Assembly: GCA_004376575.1 (NCBI GenBank)
Contig: SOJN01000049.1
Location: 1-52,312, forward strand
Direction: 5' to 3'
Length of the DNA: 52,312 bases
Origin: a candidate division TA06 bacterium
GTDB lineage: Bacteria > Hydrothermota > DG-26 > E44-bin18
The notes beneath the pieces were generated by a model that was not told the DNA's origin, ran no database searches, and saw nothing but the letters and a program-made list of their open reading frames with translations. The translations under genes and the position numbers were made by a program. Positions 19,890-44,174 of this stretch are shown here, piece by piece. The first letter of the stretch is position 1; each line of letters begins with the position of its first letter.

Positions 19890-20160
19890 AACATTCCTGG
19901 AATGTATTTGGATTCAAACCCCTGTAACCACAGATCATCACTGGAACTGGCTGTACGCTATACGCAAAGAAAGCTGGAGATAACGAAATTCCTTCCCCTG
20001 CATCACCCGACACCCGAAACTGCGAAATTCCCATCACCCATACCCTGCCCCTTCGAAATTCGTAGTCTCCATCTTCGAAGGTTGCGAGACGGGTTGAGTG
20101 GAATTTCCTAATCTGGTGTTCTTCGTTTCGATTTTCGGCTCTGGGATTTCGCAATTTCGG

Positions 20161-20272
20161 AACCACAGATTTCACAGATTAACACAAGATTATCTTTCTG
20201 GTTTGGGTTTAGCCATGAGAATACGGTTTGAATCCGTGTCAATCTCGTGTAATCTCGTGGTTAGGGGTTTTA
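20161..20272. repeat. MITE-like inverted-repeat element, copy 2
   Basis: A roughly 112-bp element. Its left end (AACCACAGATTTCACAGATT, continuing to about 20191) and right end (AATCTCGTGTAATCTCGTGG and the following TT) are inverted copies of each other over about 31 bp with a few mismatches. Transcribed, it would fold into one long hairpin. A close copy lies 240 bp away at 20408-20510. Confidence 0.8.
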
Positions 20273-20304
20273 TTTTCCCAATTTCGCAATACAGAAAGAG
20301 AAAT

Positions 20305-20356
20305 GTCATTGCGAGACTCGCGGAGCGAGTCGAAGCAATCTGACTCAAGCAGATCC
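20305..20356. repeat. ATTGCGAG-type dispersed repeat, copy 1
   Basis: GTCATTGCGAG, then a perfect 7-bp hairpin GACTCGC-GGA-GCGAGTC, then GAAGCAATCT and CAAGCAGATCC. The second copy is at 24760-24809. Repeats of this form are common in many bacterial genomes. Confidence 0.8.
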
Positions 20357-20407
20357 TTCGACTCCCAGAATCCTGTGGCTTCAGGGGTTTCAATTTCGCA
20401 ATTTCGG

Positions 20408-20510
20408 AACCACAGATTTCACAGATTAACACAAGATTATTTTTCTGGTTTGGGTTAGCCATGAGAATACGGTTTGAATCCGTGTCAATCTCGTGTAATC
20501 TCGTGGTTTC
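20408..20510. repeat. MITE-like inverted-repeat element, copy 3
   Basis: Nearly identical to 20161-20272 (AACCACAGATTTCACAGATT on the left, AATCTCGTGTAATCTCGTGG on the right), with small differences in the middle. Confidence 0.8.
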
Positions 20511-20605
20511 AGGTCTCAATTTCGTAATTTCGGCGGGGGTGTGACGGCTGGGGCCGGGAATTTCGCATTTTCGTGTTTTGTGTCTGCATTTTCGTGTTCT
20601 TGGTT

Positions 20606-21493
20606 CTATTTCCTGGCGAGATTTTTCCTGCGCTGGTATGCGAAACTCTCGTCGCGAGTGAATTTCCCGTGACTTAGGTCTCTTTTTAGAACTGTTCCAA
20701 GTGTCGATAGGACCACTTCGTGAAACTCTTCGTGCGTTACGGTCTTCCCAGTCTCCTCTTTGATTGACGTGATAGGCTCAATGATCCTATCCCTTATCTC
20801 GGCTGGTACCCAGATAACTTCCAAAAAATCATCTATGTCCAGTCTATCAATGAACAAATTGAGCGTAACAACGTAATCGTTTTCAGTCTCCTGAACCACA
20901 ATTCCACCGAGTCGCTTGCCATCAACTCTTACGCTGCCACGATGCTTGTACCAGGCGTTCGCAACCCCAAGTTCTCTCACAATCTGCATTAATATGTGGC
21001 CCATTTTCTGATAGATTTCGTCTGCATCTTCGAAATTACACTTGTCGAGCACCAAATGCACAAGCTTGCAGCAGGGATCAGCGAACACCAAATCGTGCTC
21101 ACCTACTGATATGATGTGTTTCAAATTTGTCTCGTGCAGGATTTCTTGAATAGCAGGAACATAATTGCTCAGCGTGACAACAGTCTCAGCGCCAGAATCG
21201 CGCAGAACATGTAGGATTTCACCAGCTTTGTAAAGAGTATTTATTGGCACGGCTATTGCACCGAGTTTCTGTATTGCAAAAAACGCATACACAAATTCGG
21301 GGATATTAGGTAACATAATCCCAACTTTTGCACCTTGCGTTATCCCAAGTGACTTGAGCCCATTCGCCAGTCGATTTGATTCCTTATCGAGTTTCCTGTA
21401 AGTTATCTCCTTTTCGTCAAAAATCAACGCAACTCGCTTTCCAAATCTCTTGATCGTGTTTTCAAGAATACTCTGGAGGATCCCTTCAGACAC
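20606..21493 (-). CDS. Chimeric ORF: acyl-CoA synthetase N-terminal part joined to lipoate-protein ligase C-terminal part
   Basis: About 295 residues from a GTG at 21493 that has AAGGAG 9 bp upstream; a TTG at 21514 would add seven residues. The first about 133 residues are the N-terminal part of an AMP-dependent acyl-CoA synthetase (ITYRKLDKESNRLANGLKSL, KVGIMLPNIPEFVYAFFAIQ, AIAVPINTLY). At about nucleotide 21094 the sequence becomes the C-terminal two thirds of a lipoate-protein ligase A type enzyme (DLVFADPCCKLVH, VDGKRLGGIVVQ with the lysine expected at the lipoyl-AMP site, then a helical tail). The complementary halves are in the upstream ORF 21486-22883, whose stop this start overlaps by 8 bp. 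Each half alone would be non-functional; they may assemble or be dead. Confidence 0.7.
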   Translation of the reverse strand: MSEGILQSILENTIKRFGKRVALIFDEKEITYRKLDKESNRLANGLKSLGITQGAKVGIMLPNIPEFVYAFFAIQKLGAIAVPINTLYKAGEILHVLRDSGAETVVTLSNYVPAIQEILHETNLKHIISVGEHDLVFADPCCKLVHLVLDKCNFEDADEIYQKMGHILMQIVRELGVANAWYKHRGSVRVDGKRLGGIVVQETENDYVVTLNLFIDRLDIDDFLEVIWVPAEIRDRIIEPITSIKEETGKTVTHEEFHEVVLSTLGTVLKRDLSHGKFTRDESFAYQRRKNLARK

Positions 21494-22883
21494 TTTCGTA
21501 TGGCTCCTTTTCAATTACTCTTTCGTCCCGGTAACTCGGGTGCAACTCCTTTTTTGACACTTTACCGGTTAAACTTTTTGGCAATCTCTCTCGAAACTCG
21601 ATCGACTTGGGGACTTTGAACGGTGCAAGTCGTTCTCGACAGAAGCCTAGCAATTCTTTTTCGGTAACATCGTTGCCGACTACAAATGCTTTGATCAGTT
21701 CGCGTTCGTCTTTCTGGATCCCAATGACCGCAGCTTCCTCGACCTTGGGGTGTTCGCTCAGAGTCTCCTCTATTTCCCTTGGTGAAATGTTCTCGCCACC
21801 AAGGATGATGATGTCCTTCTTTCTTTCGGTGATATAGAAATAACCTTCCTCATCCTTGTATCCCAGGTCGCCCGTATAGAAGAAGCCTCCTTTAATTGCA
21901 TTCTGGGTCTCCTCTTCCAGATTGTGATAACCTTTTGTCACAGTTGGACTCTTTATTATGATCTCACCGATTTCACCAGGTGGTAACTGATTGCCCTTCT
22001 CGTCGATAACTCTCATCTCCACCTGAGAAAGCGGCGTACCAACTGATCCCGGTTTCGGTTTTTGCCCCGGATTGAGTGCGACTGCCGAAGCAGTTTCAGT
22101 AAGCCCATAGCCTTCGATCAACTTCGTGCCGAGTGTGGTTTCAAACTGCCTTATTAGTTGCTTTGGAAACGGTGCACCTCCTGAAACACAATACCGCAGT
22201 GTTCTCGGCAATTGCACTTTCACAAGCTCACAGAATTTCAAAAGATGCACAAACATAGTAGGTATGGCGAGTAAAATGGTTGCCTTGATCCGCTTTATCG
22301 CGTTATAAAGATTTTTTGGAGTGTAACGGGACATAAGGATCACAGTGGCACCTCGTTCGACACCTGTTATGAGAACATTTGTTAGTCCAAATACATGGAA
22401 AAAGGGCAAAACACCAACGATAACATCGGTTTCGTTCACGTCTATGCGTGCCTTTGTAAGACTTGACCCGCTCACAAAGTTTTGATGAGTGAGTAATACT
22501 CCCTTAGGGCGAGCGGTTGTACCAGAGGTGTAAAGTATACATGCGGTATCGTCAGAATTGCTCCGGTGCGAACGAAACTTCTCACTGGACCTTGACACCA
22601 ATTCCTTATAAGGGATGGTATCTATCAAACTAGCACCACCTCTGCCTGCACGTGGCTTTATCGCCACATTCATGTTTTCTTCTCTTGCCTTATCAAGATC
22701 TATCTTCACATCCGCACCAGCAAGGATACCCTTGCGGGTGATACTTTGTATTATGACCGTATCCTCAACCCCAGTAGTCATAAGAAACGGACTTACAATC
22801 CTCGATTCAGCAACTGCGCTCGGCAGCGCAAACAAGTCACCTACATCAGTCTCTGGTGCATCAATAACACGTAACTTTTTCAT
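21486..22883 (-). CDS. Chimeric ORF: lipoate-protein ligase N-terminal part joined to acyl-CoA synthetase C-terminal part
   Basis: A 465-residue protein. Residues 1-88 match the start of a biotin/lipoate A/B ligase (LRVIDAPETDVGDLFALPSA, VAIKPRAGRGGASLID, equivalent to the RRxxGGGAVxHD signature). From residue 89 it is the rest of an AMP-forming acyl-CoA synthetase: P-loop YTSGTTARPKGV, GYGLTETASA, YTGDLGYKDEEGYFYITERK, KDIIILGGENISPREIE and LPKSLTGKVSKKEL with the catalytic lysine. Combined lengths (88+162 and 133+377) equal one complete LplA (about 250) and one complete synthetase (about 510). It follows the symporter by 6 bp. Confidence 0.75.
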   Translation of the reverse strand: MKKLRVIDAPETDVGDLFALPSAVAESRIVSPFLMTTGVEDTVIIQSITRKGILAGADVKIDLDKAREENMNVAIKPRAGRGGASLIDTIPYKELVSRSSEKFRSHRSNSDDTACILYTSGTTARPKGVLLTHQNFVSGSSLTKARIDVNETDVIVGVLPFFHVFGLTNVLITGVERGATVILMSRYTPKNLYNAIKRIKATILLAIPTMFVHLLKFCELVKVQLPRTLRYCVSGGAPFPKQLIRQFETTLGTKLIEGYGLTETASAVALNPGQKPKPGSVGTPLSQVEMRVIDEKGNQLPPGEIGEIIIKSPTVTKGYHNLEEETQNAIKGGFFYTGDLGYKDEEGYFYITERKKDIIILGGENISPREIEETLSEHPKVEEAAVIGIQKDERELIKAFVVGNDVTEKELLGFCRERLAPFKVPKSIEFRERLPKSLTGKVSKKELHPSYRDERVIEKEPYESV

Positions 22884-22889
22884 GGAATG

Positions 22890-24404
22890 TCACGCCTGTT
22901 CAAGGTATTCGTCTACCTCATCGTAGAATCTGCGGATGGTTTCACTGTCTGGTCGCGGCGTCAACAGACTCACCACTACGAAGAGTATTATGTTTAGAGC
23001 CAAAGCTGGTATTAGTGGATTTTCAAGATGAAATACGATTGGGGGATAAAAATAGCCCGCGACAAGATAAGCAGTGCCACCGATTATACCGCACAGTGCA
23101 CCCTGTCTTGTGCTTCTTCGCCAAAGTATAGAACCGACAAGTAGGGTGGCCCATTGTGCAAACCCTGGCACCGCTATCTTTGTAAGGTAGAGTGCAAGCG
23201 CCATACGATAGTGAAGTGCGACGACAAGCGCAAGAAGGATTAATCCAATAACAGCAAGCTTGGTTACAAACACCATCTGCTCTGGCCGCATCTTCTTCCC
23301 TAGCCCCCCGTAAATTATGTCGCGCGAAACGAATATGGCAGATGTCATAACCTGCATAGCAGCGGTGGAGACAGCAGCGGCGATCACACCAATTAATACG
23401 AATCCTGCAAACCAGCCCGGCAAATACTGTGTTATGATGGTCTGCACGACGTTGTCTGCTTCAAGACCCAGCATGGGCGGGACGAGTGTCCCCTCCATGT
23501 GCGATATAGCAGGGGCGACAATCCCACCCCATAAAAACGGAATCGTGTAAAAACCCACCCCGCCAACGACAAGTGCAAGAAGAGGCACCCATTTGAATAC
23601 TGATTTGTCCTGCGCAGTCAGAGTGGCCATAACCACATGCGGCCACGCAAACCCCATAAGTCCAACGATAAATGCCCCGCCTATAATGAAAGGCCGAAAA
23701 TAGCCCTGGGGACCAGGTGCGACATATAATGCAGGAAAATTGGATTCGACAACATTCACCGCCTCTCGCAACCCCCCGGGAAAAACTCTATTTATCACCC
23801 ACACCAGAGACCCGAGGAAAGCAACCGTGTAGATCGTACCAAGCAGAACATTCACCCACGCCGTTGTGCGCATGCCGCCAAGGAATACTATTATAATCAA
23901 AAGCACCGTGGTATAGACTATGCCAAAAATGGGGCTTATTCCGGTGAGTGCTTTGAAACCAAGTCCTACTCCAAGTGGCTGGATGCCGATGTAAGGTATG
24001 ATAAACGCAAGCATGATCAAAGAAATGATAATCCGCAACGCGCGAGAATTGTAACGCTCAGCTACTATTTCAATTGGTGAAAGGAAATTGTTCAGCCGCG
24101 CCACTGCCCACAACCTTGGACCCAGGAACATATACAGGCAAGCAAAGCTGACTACGGCGCCCCAGATGAAATACACATAAAATACACCGTGTTGATACAG
24201 AAAGCCCGGATAGCCGTAAAAGGTCCACGCGCTTGAGATGGCAAACAATACAAAGAAAAACATGACCGTTACGCCAATCCCACGTGACGCAAGCATATAA
24301 TCCTCGGGCGTCTTGGCCGAAACCTTGTAGCCAAATATCGAAAGAAGCAGGATCAGCAGACCGAAAATCGATATGATGATTACTGTGATCATCTGTAAGG
24401 CCAA
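22890..24404 (-). CDS. Sodium:solute symporter (SSS family)
   Basis: A 504-residue integral membrane protein with about 13 hydrophobic helices, beginning MALQMITVIIISIFGLLILL. Family features are the early DYMLASRGIGV segment, FLSPIEIVAERYNSRALRII, a GMRTTAWVNVLLG loop and AAAVSTAAMQVMTSAIFVSR (helix bearing the sodium-site serines). The substrate is unknown; linkage to an acyl-CoA synthetase and lipoate ligase suggests a carboxylate, which is inference. It overlaps the small membrane protein upstream by 16 bp, as is usual for symporters with a small accessory subunit. Confidence 0.85.
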   Translation of the reverse strand: MALQMITVIIISIFGLLILLLSIFGYKVSAKTPEDYMLASRGIGVTVMFFFVLFAISSAWTFYGYPGFLYQHGVFYVYFIWGAVVSFACLYMFLGPRLWAVARLNNFLSPIEIVAERYNSRALRIIISLIMLAFIIPYIGIQPLGVGLGFKALTGISPIFGIVYTTVLLIIIVFLGGMRTTAWVNVLLGTIYTVAFLGSLVWVINRVFPGGLREAVNVVESNFPALYVAPGPQGYFRPFIIGGAFIVGLMGFAWPHVVMATLTAQDKSVFKWVPLLALVVGGVGFYTIPFLWGGIVAPAISHMEGTLVPPMLGLEADNVVQTIITQYLPGWFAGFVLIGVIAAAVSTAAMQVMTSAIFVSRDIIYGGLGKKMRPEQMVFVTKLAVIGLILLALVVALHYRMALALYLTKIAVPGFAQWATLLVGSILWRRSTRQGALCGIIGGTAYLVAGYFYPPIVFHLENPLIPALALNIILFVVVSLLTPRPDSETIRRFYDEVDEYLEQA

Positions 24405-24601
24405 TATTTAAAGGCGTATATTAGGTGTGCAACAGCCAAGATGGTAAGAAGGCAAATCCCGGCAAAGAAGGGTAAAGGCAATATCCCAAACACCAGTATC
24501 TTCCGATCAAAGTAGCGAACAATGTATAACATACCAATGATGCCCAGAAGGAGCACAAGAAGATATGCCTTGCCCGGTTTATGCTTAATTATCTCACGCA
24601 T
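24389..24601 (-). CDS. Small membrane protein associated with the symporter
   Basis: A 70-residue protein with two hydrophobic helices (AYLLVLLLGIIGMLYIV and FGILPLPFFAGICLLTILAV). Such small two-helix proteins, in the DUF3311/DUF997-like group, commonly precede SSS transporters and are thought to be accessory subunits. It overlaps the symporter gene by 16 bp and begins the operon. No strong ribosome site is visible. A promoter is at 24633-24661. Confidence 0.65.
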   Translation of the reverse strand: MREIIKHKPGKAYLLVLLLGIIGMLYIVRYFDRKILVFGILPLPFFAGICLLTILAVAHLIYAFKYWPYR

Positions 24602-42831: not shown

Positions 42832-43142
42832 AAATCCTACCTCGTAGCTGCAGATTAACACACATTATCACGTGGACCAGATGTTAGATGCAAGATATGA
42901 GACATACGACAGCTATCAGCTGTTACGTTCCAAATCCGTTTCAAGGTGTTATTTTCTATCTTCTATTTTCGGCTTTTGGAATCTTGTGTGATCTCTGGTT
43001 TCAATAGTTGGACCAATTTCGTAATTCGTGTTATGTGTGTGCAATTTCGTAATTTCGCCGGGGACTGGCAGGGGGATGGGAATTTCGTATTTTCGGGTAG
43101 GCGTGCGGTGTGGTGGCAGGGATTTTCGTCTTCATAGTCCTG
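42832..43142. other. Intergenic region, repeat debris
   Basis: No gene. Contains AGATTAACACA, CAGCTATCAGCTG, TTCTATTTTCGGC and AATTTCGTAATTTCG fragments like those at 10.4-10.7 and 19.9-20.6 kb, in a more degenerate form. Confidence 0.5.
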
Positions 43143-43171
43143 TTGACACCAATAGCTGATGTGAGTAGGAT
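43143..43171 (+). promoter_or_regulatory. Promoter of the GMP-synthase-like gene
   Basis: TTGACA (43143-43148), 17-bp spacer, TAGGAT (43166-43171), about 40 bp before the ATG at 43212. Confidence 0.65.
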
Positions 43172-43211
43172 TAGATGTGTCGAGCACTATCACATGAAAG
43201 GGGGTTCTCAC

Positions 43212-44174
43212 ATGACTAAGGAAATAACAGCTCAGGACCTCAATCCCGAGCGGTTCATCGATGAAAAGGTCAGAGACATCAAGGCCGCTGTTGGGAAAGG
43301 AATGGCCGTCAACGCGCTCTCAGGAGGCGTCGATTCATCCTCAGTTACGATGCTGGGACATCGTGCCCTGGGGAAGCGCCTTAAGACCGTCTTCATCGAA
43401 AATGGACTTATGCGCGAGGGAGAGCCCGAAAAGGTTGTCCGCATTTTTGAGAAACTGGGGGTACCGGTTGAGATAGTCGATGCACGACAGGAGTTCTTTA
43501 CGGCCCTTAAAGGAATCACGGACCCGGAAGAGAAGCGCGAGGCTGTTACCCAGACCTTCTATAAGGATGTATTCGGACGCATCGTCAAGGAAAGCAAGGC
43601 AATGTTCCTTCTCCAGGGGACTATCCTGACCGACGTCGATGAGACTGTTGCAGGCGTCAAGCGGCAGCACAACGTCTTCGCCCAGCTCGGGATTGACCCC
43701 CAGGACGCCTTTGGCTACAACATAATCGAGCCACTCATTCAGCTTCGTAAGGACGGCGTCAGGAAGGTCGGCAGCGCCCTGGGCCTTTCAGATGATGTGT
43801 CCCAGCGCATTCCGTTCCCGGGGCCGGCACTCGCGGCACGCGTGATCGGAGAAGTTACACCCGAGCGCATAGAAACTGTCCGAAAAGCAACCGCAATCGT
43901 GGAGGATTTGCTCAAGGGAACTGACGCGTTCCAGTACATGGCAATTCTTCACCAAGACCGGGTAACCGGGATGCGGGAGGGTAAGCGTGATTTTGGTCAG
44001 CAGATTGAGGTGCGCTGCTGGGATAGCGTCGATGCGCGGACTGCTACGCCAACCCATCTCTCATTTGAAACCCTTGAGAAACTCGCTCAGGAGATCATAC
44101 GCGACGTGCCAGGTGTCGTCAGCGTCACATACAACATCGCGCCAAAGCCGCCTTCAACGATCGAAGCGGTCTGA
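43212..44174 (+). CDS. guaA: GMP synthase ATP-pyrophosphatase subunit (GuaA C-terminal part only)
   Basis: A 320-residue protein with the ATP-PPase domain (ALSGGVDSSSVTMLGHRAL P-loop; FIENGLMREGEPEKV) and the C-terminal dimerisation domain (FPGPALAARVIGEVTPERI, SVTYNIAPKPPSTIEAV). It converts XMP to GMP when ammonia or a glutaminase supplies nitrogen. No glutamine amidotransferase domain is fused or adjacent, as in archaeal two-subunit enzymes. The ATG at 43212 is preferred; the frame is open upstream to 43110 through the promoter. Sequence divergence from standard GuaA means a related ATP-PPase activity cannot be excluded. Confidence 0.75.
   Translation: MTKEITAQDLNPERFIDEKVRDIKAAVGKGMAVNALSGGVDSSSVTMLGHRALGKRLKTVFIENGLMREGEPEKVVRIFEKLGVPVEIVDARQEFFTALKGITDPEEKREAVTQTFYKDVFGRIVKESKAMFLLQGTILTDVDETVAGVKRQHNVFAQLGIDPQDAFGYNIIEPLIQLRKDGVRKVGSALGLSDDVSQRIPFPGPALAARVIGEVTPERIETVRKATAIVEDLLKGTDAFQYMAILHQDRVTGMREGKRDFGQQIEVRCWDSVDARTATPTHLSFETLEKLAQEIIRDVPGVVSVTYNIAPKPPSTIEAV

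Follow-up and report, generated by a model that had tools for sequence, protein, structure and literature searches.

Two hybrid reading frames in a symporter operon

The window analysed here is a stretch of 52,312 nt, contig SOJN01000049.1 of the draft genome GCA_004376575.1 of a candidate division TA06 bacterium. On its minus strand lie two overlapping open reading frames, each of which joins part of an LplA-family protein to part of an acyl-CoA synthetase (ACS). ORF1 (21486–22883, 465 aa) consists of an LplA-like N-terminal part and an ACS C-terminal part; ORF2 (20606–21493, 295 aa, GTG start) consists of an ACS N-terminal part and an LplA-like C-terminal part, both assignments being drawn from Pfam, profile comparison and the alignment of homologous pairs. 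A frame check found both frames open at these coordinates, which agree with those of an earlier note on this DNA. The LplA-like segment of ORF1 comprises 84 codons (22632–22883) and ends in a modified glycine-rich loop, R-A-G-R-G-G-A. It is followed by 381 ACS codons (21489–22631) with the P-loop YTSGTTARPKGV at 22532–22497 and a C-terminal catalytic-lysine motif, GKV. ORF2 begins with 134 ACS codons (21092–21493) and ends with 161 LplA-like codons (20609–21091), in which an arginine (codon 20914–20912) stands at the position of the LplA catalytic lysine. The earlier note had put the joints at 22620 and 21094, with pieces of 88 + 377 and 133 + 162 residues; its claim that both joints are in frame holds, and their positions are revised to about 22631 in ORF1 and 21091 in ORF2, giving 84 + 381 and 134 + 161. 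The 8 bp overlap between the ORF2 start and the ORF1 stop (21486–21493) was confirmed, with GTG as the ORF2 start. An AAAGGAG lies 10 nt upstream of this GTG, and an alternative in-frame TTG start is present at 21514.

Adjoining the pair on the same strand is a gene for a sodium:solute symporter of the SSS family (22890–24404), recognized by PF00474 at 93.3 bits (cut-off 22.8) and scoring under every NCBIfam equivalog cut-off. Its start is overlapped by a gene for a small membrane protein of 70 aa (24389–24601), which has homologues in relatives and no Pfam match. A symporter homologue directly precedes ORF1 in nearly all loci that include this region, and in 14 of 14 such loci a homologue of the 70-aa protein, whose ...WPYR end is conserved, lies upstream of the symporter, so that the operon order small protein, symporter, ORF1, ORF2 is conserved. 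The small protein is probably a subunit of the symporter. In one locus (L223) the usual symporter is replaced by an ActP-like symporter with DUF485, and in this locus and in L224 an aldehyde ferredoxin oxidoreductase gene lies downstream of the pair. The symporter and oxidoreductase neighbours suggest that a carboxylate is taken up and activated. The operon contains no gene for an acceptor protein.

Just downstream of ORF2, at 20146–20532, are two repeat copies about 247 bp apart (64 nt at 98% and 84 nt at 88%), perhaps a dispersed intergenic repeat.

The four segments are complementary halves of two unrelated enzymes

The Pfam AMP-binding domain is divided between the two frames, with profile positions 2–117 in ORF2 and positions 151–384, together with the C-terminal domain (AMP-binding_C), in ORF1. 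Compared by profile with intact synthetases, the two ACS halves cover columns 26–154 and 169–534, and a variable loop alone falls in between. For the LplA-like part, the second part of ORF2 matches positions 68–198 of the LplA-B_cat profile, whereas the 84-residue start of ORF1 by itself has no Pfam match. In profile-profile comparison, a profile built from ten such N-terminal segments aligned to columns 6–84 of a canonical LplA reference alignment of 13 proteins with 93% probability, and the end of ORF2 aligned to columns 88–242 with 97.5%. Joined in silico (the 84 codons of the ORF1 start plus the 161 of the ORF2 end), the two halves matched canonical LplA continuously over columns 7–242 (98.9%, E = 3e-17), covering the whole LplA/LipB catalytic domain, and raised the Pfam LplA-B_cat score from 33.8 bits for the ORF2 half alone to 44.6 bits over continuous positions 45–198.

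By profile the halves are complementary; each enzyme thus occurs as a single copy with a single cut and hardly any loss. An acyl-CoA synthetase and an LplA-family gene, two unrelated enzymes, have reciprocally exchanged halves. The earlier note had described such a half-swap with in-frame joints, a description that these comparisons bear out for both enzymes, including the question whether both LplA parts are LplA-like. Its label "lipoate-protein ligase" is right as to the LplA family and too specific as to function: the joined LplA shows no PF10437 (LplB accessory domain) match at E ≤ 1 in Pfam, and its glycine-rich loop is changed.

Distribution and joint inheritance of the swapped pair

A search of 60 relatives found a swapped pair in another WOR-3 family (genome G031; locus L007/L031), whose ORF1 and ORF2 are 54% and 49% identical to those of the window over their full lengths. 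In all, 17 complete swapped pairs were collected: 2 in WOR-3, 8 in a Spirochaetota group (one of them, the Spirochaetota MAG locus L032, added by a scan of species genomes) and 7 in the phylum of a Syntrophobacterales MAG. In every one of them the halves are exchanged reciprocally, their order and joints being identical throughout, and some of the pairs lie on long contigs (2.07, 3.29 and 3.78 Mb). Counted by genome, carriers amount to 2 of 147 in the window's own phylum, 11 of 393 in the Spirochaetota and 9 of 395 in the phylum of the Syntrophobacterales MAG. No chimera was found at E ≤ 1e-38 in about 280 genomes each from the phyla of a Saprospiraceae MAG and a Dehalococcoidia MAG, nor in the plasmids searched. 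Such scattered occurrence in three phylum-level groups suggests that the operon was transferred as a whole.

The earlier note had asked whether the swap recurs in related genomes; it is conserved, joints included. ORF1 and ORF2 are always adjacent and always encode two polypeptides, fused in none of the pairs. Spacing varies among relatives: some pairs overlap, by a 4 bp ATGA or by as much as some tens of bases according to which start is taken, and others are separated by as much as 160 bp. Whether built from ORF1, from ORF2, or from the LplA or the ACS sequence after re-joining, trees show the same major groups (window + L031; L216 + L218–L221; L032 + L130 + L131; L134 + L136; L223 + L224), and the pair is inherited as a unit.

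Two other copies have lost parts. A spirochaete copy (L138, G511 contig 29) is decayed, with ORF1 mostly deleted and ORF2 truncated, and its remnants keep the swapped order. In L217 (G807 contig 12) the LplA N-terminal segment is lost and the symporter is fused in frame to the ACS C-terminal part as a 900-aa ORF, next to an intact ORF2.

Motifs, selection and the copy in the window

The synthetase motifs are well kept among the 17 pairs. The P-loop, [YF]TSGTTGxPKG, is canonical in 16 of them, and YGLTE (259–263), TGD (337–339), the hinge RKK (354–356) and the C-terminal GK (440–441, all in ORF1 numbering) are near-invariant. In no pair is the ACS a single polypeptide with N before C; its N-terminal part is on ORF2 and its C-terminal part on ORF1 in 17 of 17. 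On the LplA-like side, the active-site lysine ([KR]K[ILV]xG motif) is kept in all pairs except that of the window, and YKHxG is conserved family-wide. The canonical RRxSGGG loop is absent: the family has R-x-G-R-x-G or similar, and all 17 pairs share the loop arginine. The customary Asn-Asp motif is altered throughout. Given these family-wide changes to the loop (G-R-x-G) and the Asn-Asp motif, lipoate is uncertain as the substrate.

Mean pairwise identity is 0.51 and 0.49 for the two LplA segments and 0.54 and 0.61 for the two ACS segments. All four are under purifying selection: in close pairs with unsaturated silent sites, dN/dS was mostly 0.03–0.34, with a maximum of 0.50, well below 1 in each half for which the earlier note had proposed this check.

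The copy in the window is the most divergent member and accounts for 16 of the 65 single-outlier changes seen at sites that are otherwise invariant. Two of these are unique among the 17 pairs and affect active-site residues, the P-loop Gly124 to Ala (YTSGTTARPKG; 22514–22512) and the LplA Lys to Arg (KRLGG; 20914–20912). The LplA reaction of this copy may have been lost or altered, although the family looks active.

Canonical LplA-family proteins also occur in each of the ten carriers tested, as do lipoyl or biotinyl domains and lipA, so that the chimera is not the sole lipoylation enzyme. The presence of lipA was considered as a pointer to lipoate and dropped, as non-carriers have it too. The canonical LplA of the window's genome (contig 55 of G000, L146/L006), in which PF10437 is weakly seen, is fused at its C-terminal end to a DUF116 domain, 545 aa in total.

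Predicted structures

For structure prediction the two frames were linked through a four-letter reading at the overlap, which is a modelling device and not a claim about the organism. AlphaFold2 modelled this fused chain with a mean pLDDT of 78 and a pTM of 0.68. Relative to ORF2 modelled alone, pLDDT was higher in the fused chain for both the ACS N-terminal segment (88 versus 82) and the LplA C-terminal segment (80 versus 72), in a comparison where the ACS alignments differed in depth; confidence stayed low for the LplA N-terminal segment, at a mean pLDDT of about 63. The ACS N-terminal segment of the ORF2 model superposes on intact acyl-CoA and aryl-CoA ligase structures at 1.4–1.9 Å over about 127 residues. 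Foldseek searches with the fused model, which cannot follow a permuted order, returned synthetases and, weakly, viral LplA proteins, and an assembled LplA was not seen in them. With these models the interlocked fold stays a prediction.

Relation to known systems

In known lipoate ligases, an LplB-type accessory domain is needed for lipoyl-AMP formation, and LplA relatives that have no LplB are transferases, which depend on an external activator or donor (PMC7253636, PMC10332631). It thus makes chemical sense for a transferase of this LplB-less kind to be bound to an adenylating partner. The bipartite LplA-LplB and the circularly permuted Lpl(BA) (PMC10332631) are alike in that an LplA-family catalytic domain depends on a second polypeptide or domain for acyl activation. 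However, their catalytic domain is intact and only the accessory domain is separate, whereas in the chimera the cut runs through the catalytic domain, directly behind the glycine-rich loop, the halves of this domain are carried by two proteins, and an unrelated acyl-CoA synthetase is the partner. The LIPT1/LipB/LipM "half ligases" offer another likeness, an LplB-less transferase working with a separate adenylating enzyme. The lipoate-activating enzyme belongs to the ACSM group of acyl-CoA synthetases, and mammals also import lipoate through the SSS-family vitamin transporter SMVT. The bovine lipoate-activating enzyme is cited in PMC7253636, and SMVT and lipoic acid are covered in PMC10859498. 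The mammalian transferase and activator are separate, intact proteins, unlike the chimeric enzymes, which share their chains reciprocally and whose substrate is only predicted.

The synthetase part resembles the AMP-forming acyl-CoA synthetases of the ANL superfamily in all core motifs from the P-loop to the C-terminal lysine; the nearest NCBIfam model is PRK06187, under its cut-off. Known ANL members are single-chain, but here the N-terminal 134 or so residues are on the other protein and the order is permuted to C then N. A symporter with a synthetase is a common pairing for carboxylate uptake (compare ActP/Acs). Domain insertion with circular permutation is likewise similar, one domain sitting inside another with both folds kept; in the chimera, however, the break lies at the original termini of the inserted enzyme, which results in two chains, each with half of both enzymes. 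The parts are of known kinds and the arrangement is new. We know of no conserved natural case of such a reciprocal half exchange, and a limited literature search found none.

Genes are well known to fuse, to split and to take up inserted domains, but a reciprocal trade of halves kept across distant groups would be a new route to obligate complexes. The pair offers a testable natural system for how an enzyme survives a mid-domain cut, and it points to a novel acyl-activation and transfer operon. Automatic annotation would be misled, since it is mainly the acyl-CoA ligase that scores in each ORF.

Origin of the rearrangement

The order LplA-N, ACS-C, ACS-N, LplA-C would be reached most simply by the insertion of a circularised synthetase gene into lplA, as the earlier note proposed. 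A search of 393 genomes with the joined profile did not find an unswapped sister. Its best intact LplA, in G312 (39 bits), has the canonical RRISGGG and is not such a sister; LplA-like side matches in the Spirochaetota genomes G212 and G147 are BirA-like biotin ligases beside carboxylase subunits. A TTTG common to both window joints was considered as crossover microhomology and dismissed, the event being too old for it to be meaningful.

A probable interlocked heterodimer

We consider it probable, with room left for other readings, that ORF1 and ORF2 form an interlocked heterodimer that rebuilds an adenylating synthetase and an LplA-type acyl transferase acting on an imported carboxylate. By this account, an ancient rearrangement would have set the ACS halves, in reversed order (C then N), inside an LplA-family gene, yielding two hybrid ORFs that have been inherited together since. 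The ACS halves would rebuild an adenylate-forming synthetase and the LplA halves an LplA-type acyl transferase. The symporter with its putative small subunit would import a carboxylate, from which the rebuilt synthetase would make an acyl-AMP or acyl-CoA; the LplA-like domain, having no accessory activation domain of its own, would use the activated acyl group, probably on a carrier-protein lysine. A synthetase that misses its first 130 residues misses part of the large domain, so ORF1 alone cannot be a normal synthetase, and ORF2 has the missing part. That the halves re-assemble is strongly implied; their physical assembly, the substrate, the coupling of the reactions and the target we infer. 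This reading is supported by the 17 pairs with shared joints in three phylum-level groups, the complementary halves, the kept motifs, the low dN/dS, the agreement of the trees, the conserved operon order, the higher pLDDT in the fused chain and the missing PF10437. Against it count the low-confidence model of the LplA N-terminal segment, the structure searches that showed no assembled LplA, the unequal alignment depth behind the pLDDT comparison, the altered loop and Asn-Asp motif, and an operon that lacks an acceptor gene. Among the options of the earlier note, that of two working enzymes is the favoured, still putative one. More tentatively, the pair may be an obligate two-enzyme machine in which the adenylate passes directly from the synthetase to the LplA-type transferase, a previously undescribed route of protein acylation with its own sodium symporter as supplier. 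If so, it would also exemplify in nature how two unrelated enzymes are stabilized by exchanging halves.

A different possibility, to which we give a minor share, is that only the synthetase re-assembles as an enzyme and that the LplA-like halves, devoid of catalysis, act as a clamp or regulator forcing the chains to pair. The family-wide G-R-x-G in place of S/T-G-G-G, the arginine that replaces the LplA lysine in the window and the lower conservation of the LplA segments relative to the ACS segments would all fit a catalytically idle domain. That the lysine persists in 16 of 17 pairs across phyla, together with YKHxG and the loop arginine, speaks against this.

It is improbable that the two hybrid ORFs are new stand-alone proteins, each serving a separate function, whose halves never re-associate. 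The constant separation into two polypeptides and the gaps of up to 160 bp between them would agree with independent roles, but ORF1 keeps every ATP motif of a synthetase whose N-terminal fold part sits in ORF2, the two are always adjacent and co-inherited, and the exact complementarity of the four segments would be left unexplained.

Still less credible is a locus in decay with open frames that are mere remnants, a reading that concerns the window's genome only. The window does have the most unique changes at near-invariant sites, the P-loop glycine and LplA lysine among them, and L138 is truncated and L217 without its LplA N-terminal segment; yet the window's operon is intact and so are both its ORFs, which align with those of L031 from end to end, and in the close pairs the frames are full-length and each of the four segments has a dN/dS well below 1. 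The decay in progress raised by the earlier note therefore does not apply to the family, and what stands of it is the decayed L138 and the two active-site residues missing from the window's copy. An assembly or binning error in the window contig, conceivable for a 150-contig draft, is refuted, and chance is excluded, by the same joints in the 16 further complete pairs, which come from independent assemblies of other genera and phyla, some on the megabase-sized contigs given above.

Another gene in the window

Elsewhere in the window, on the plus strand at 43110–44174, lies a GMP synthase gene that seemingly encodes the ATP-pyrophosphatase part and the C-terminal domain without the glutaminase domain, and in this it resembles the two-subunit archaeal enzymes.
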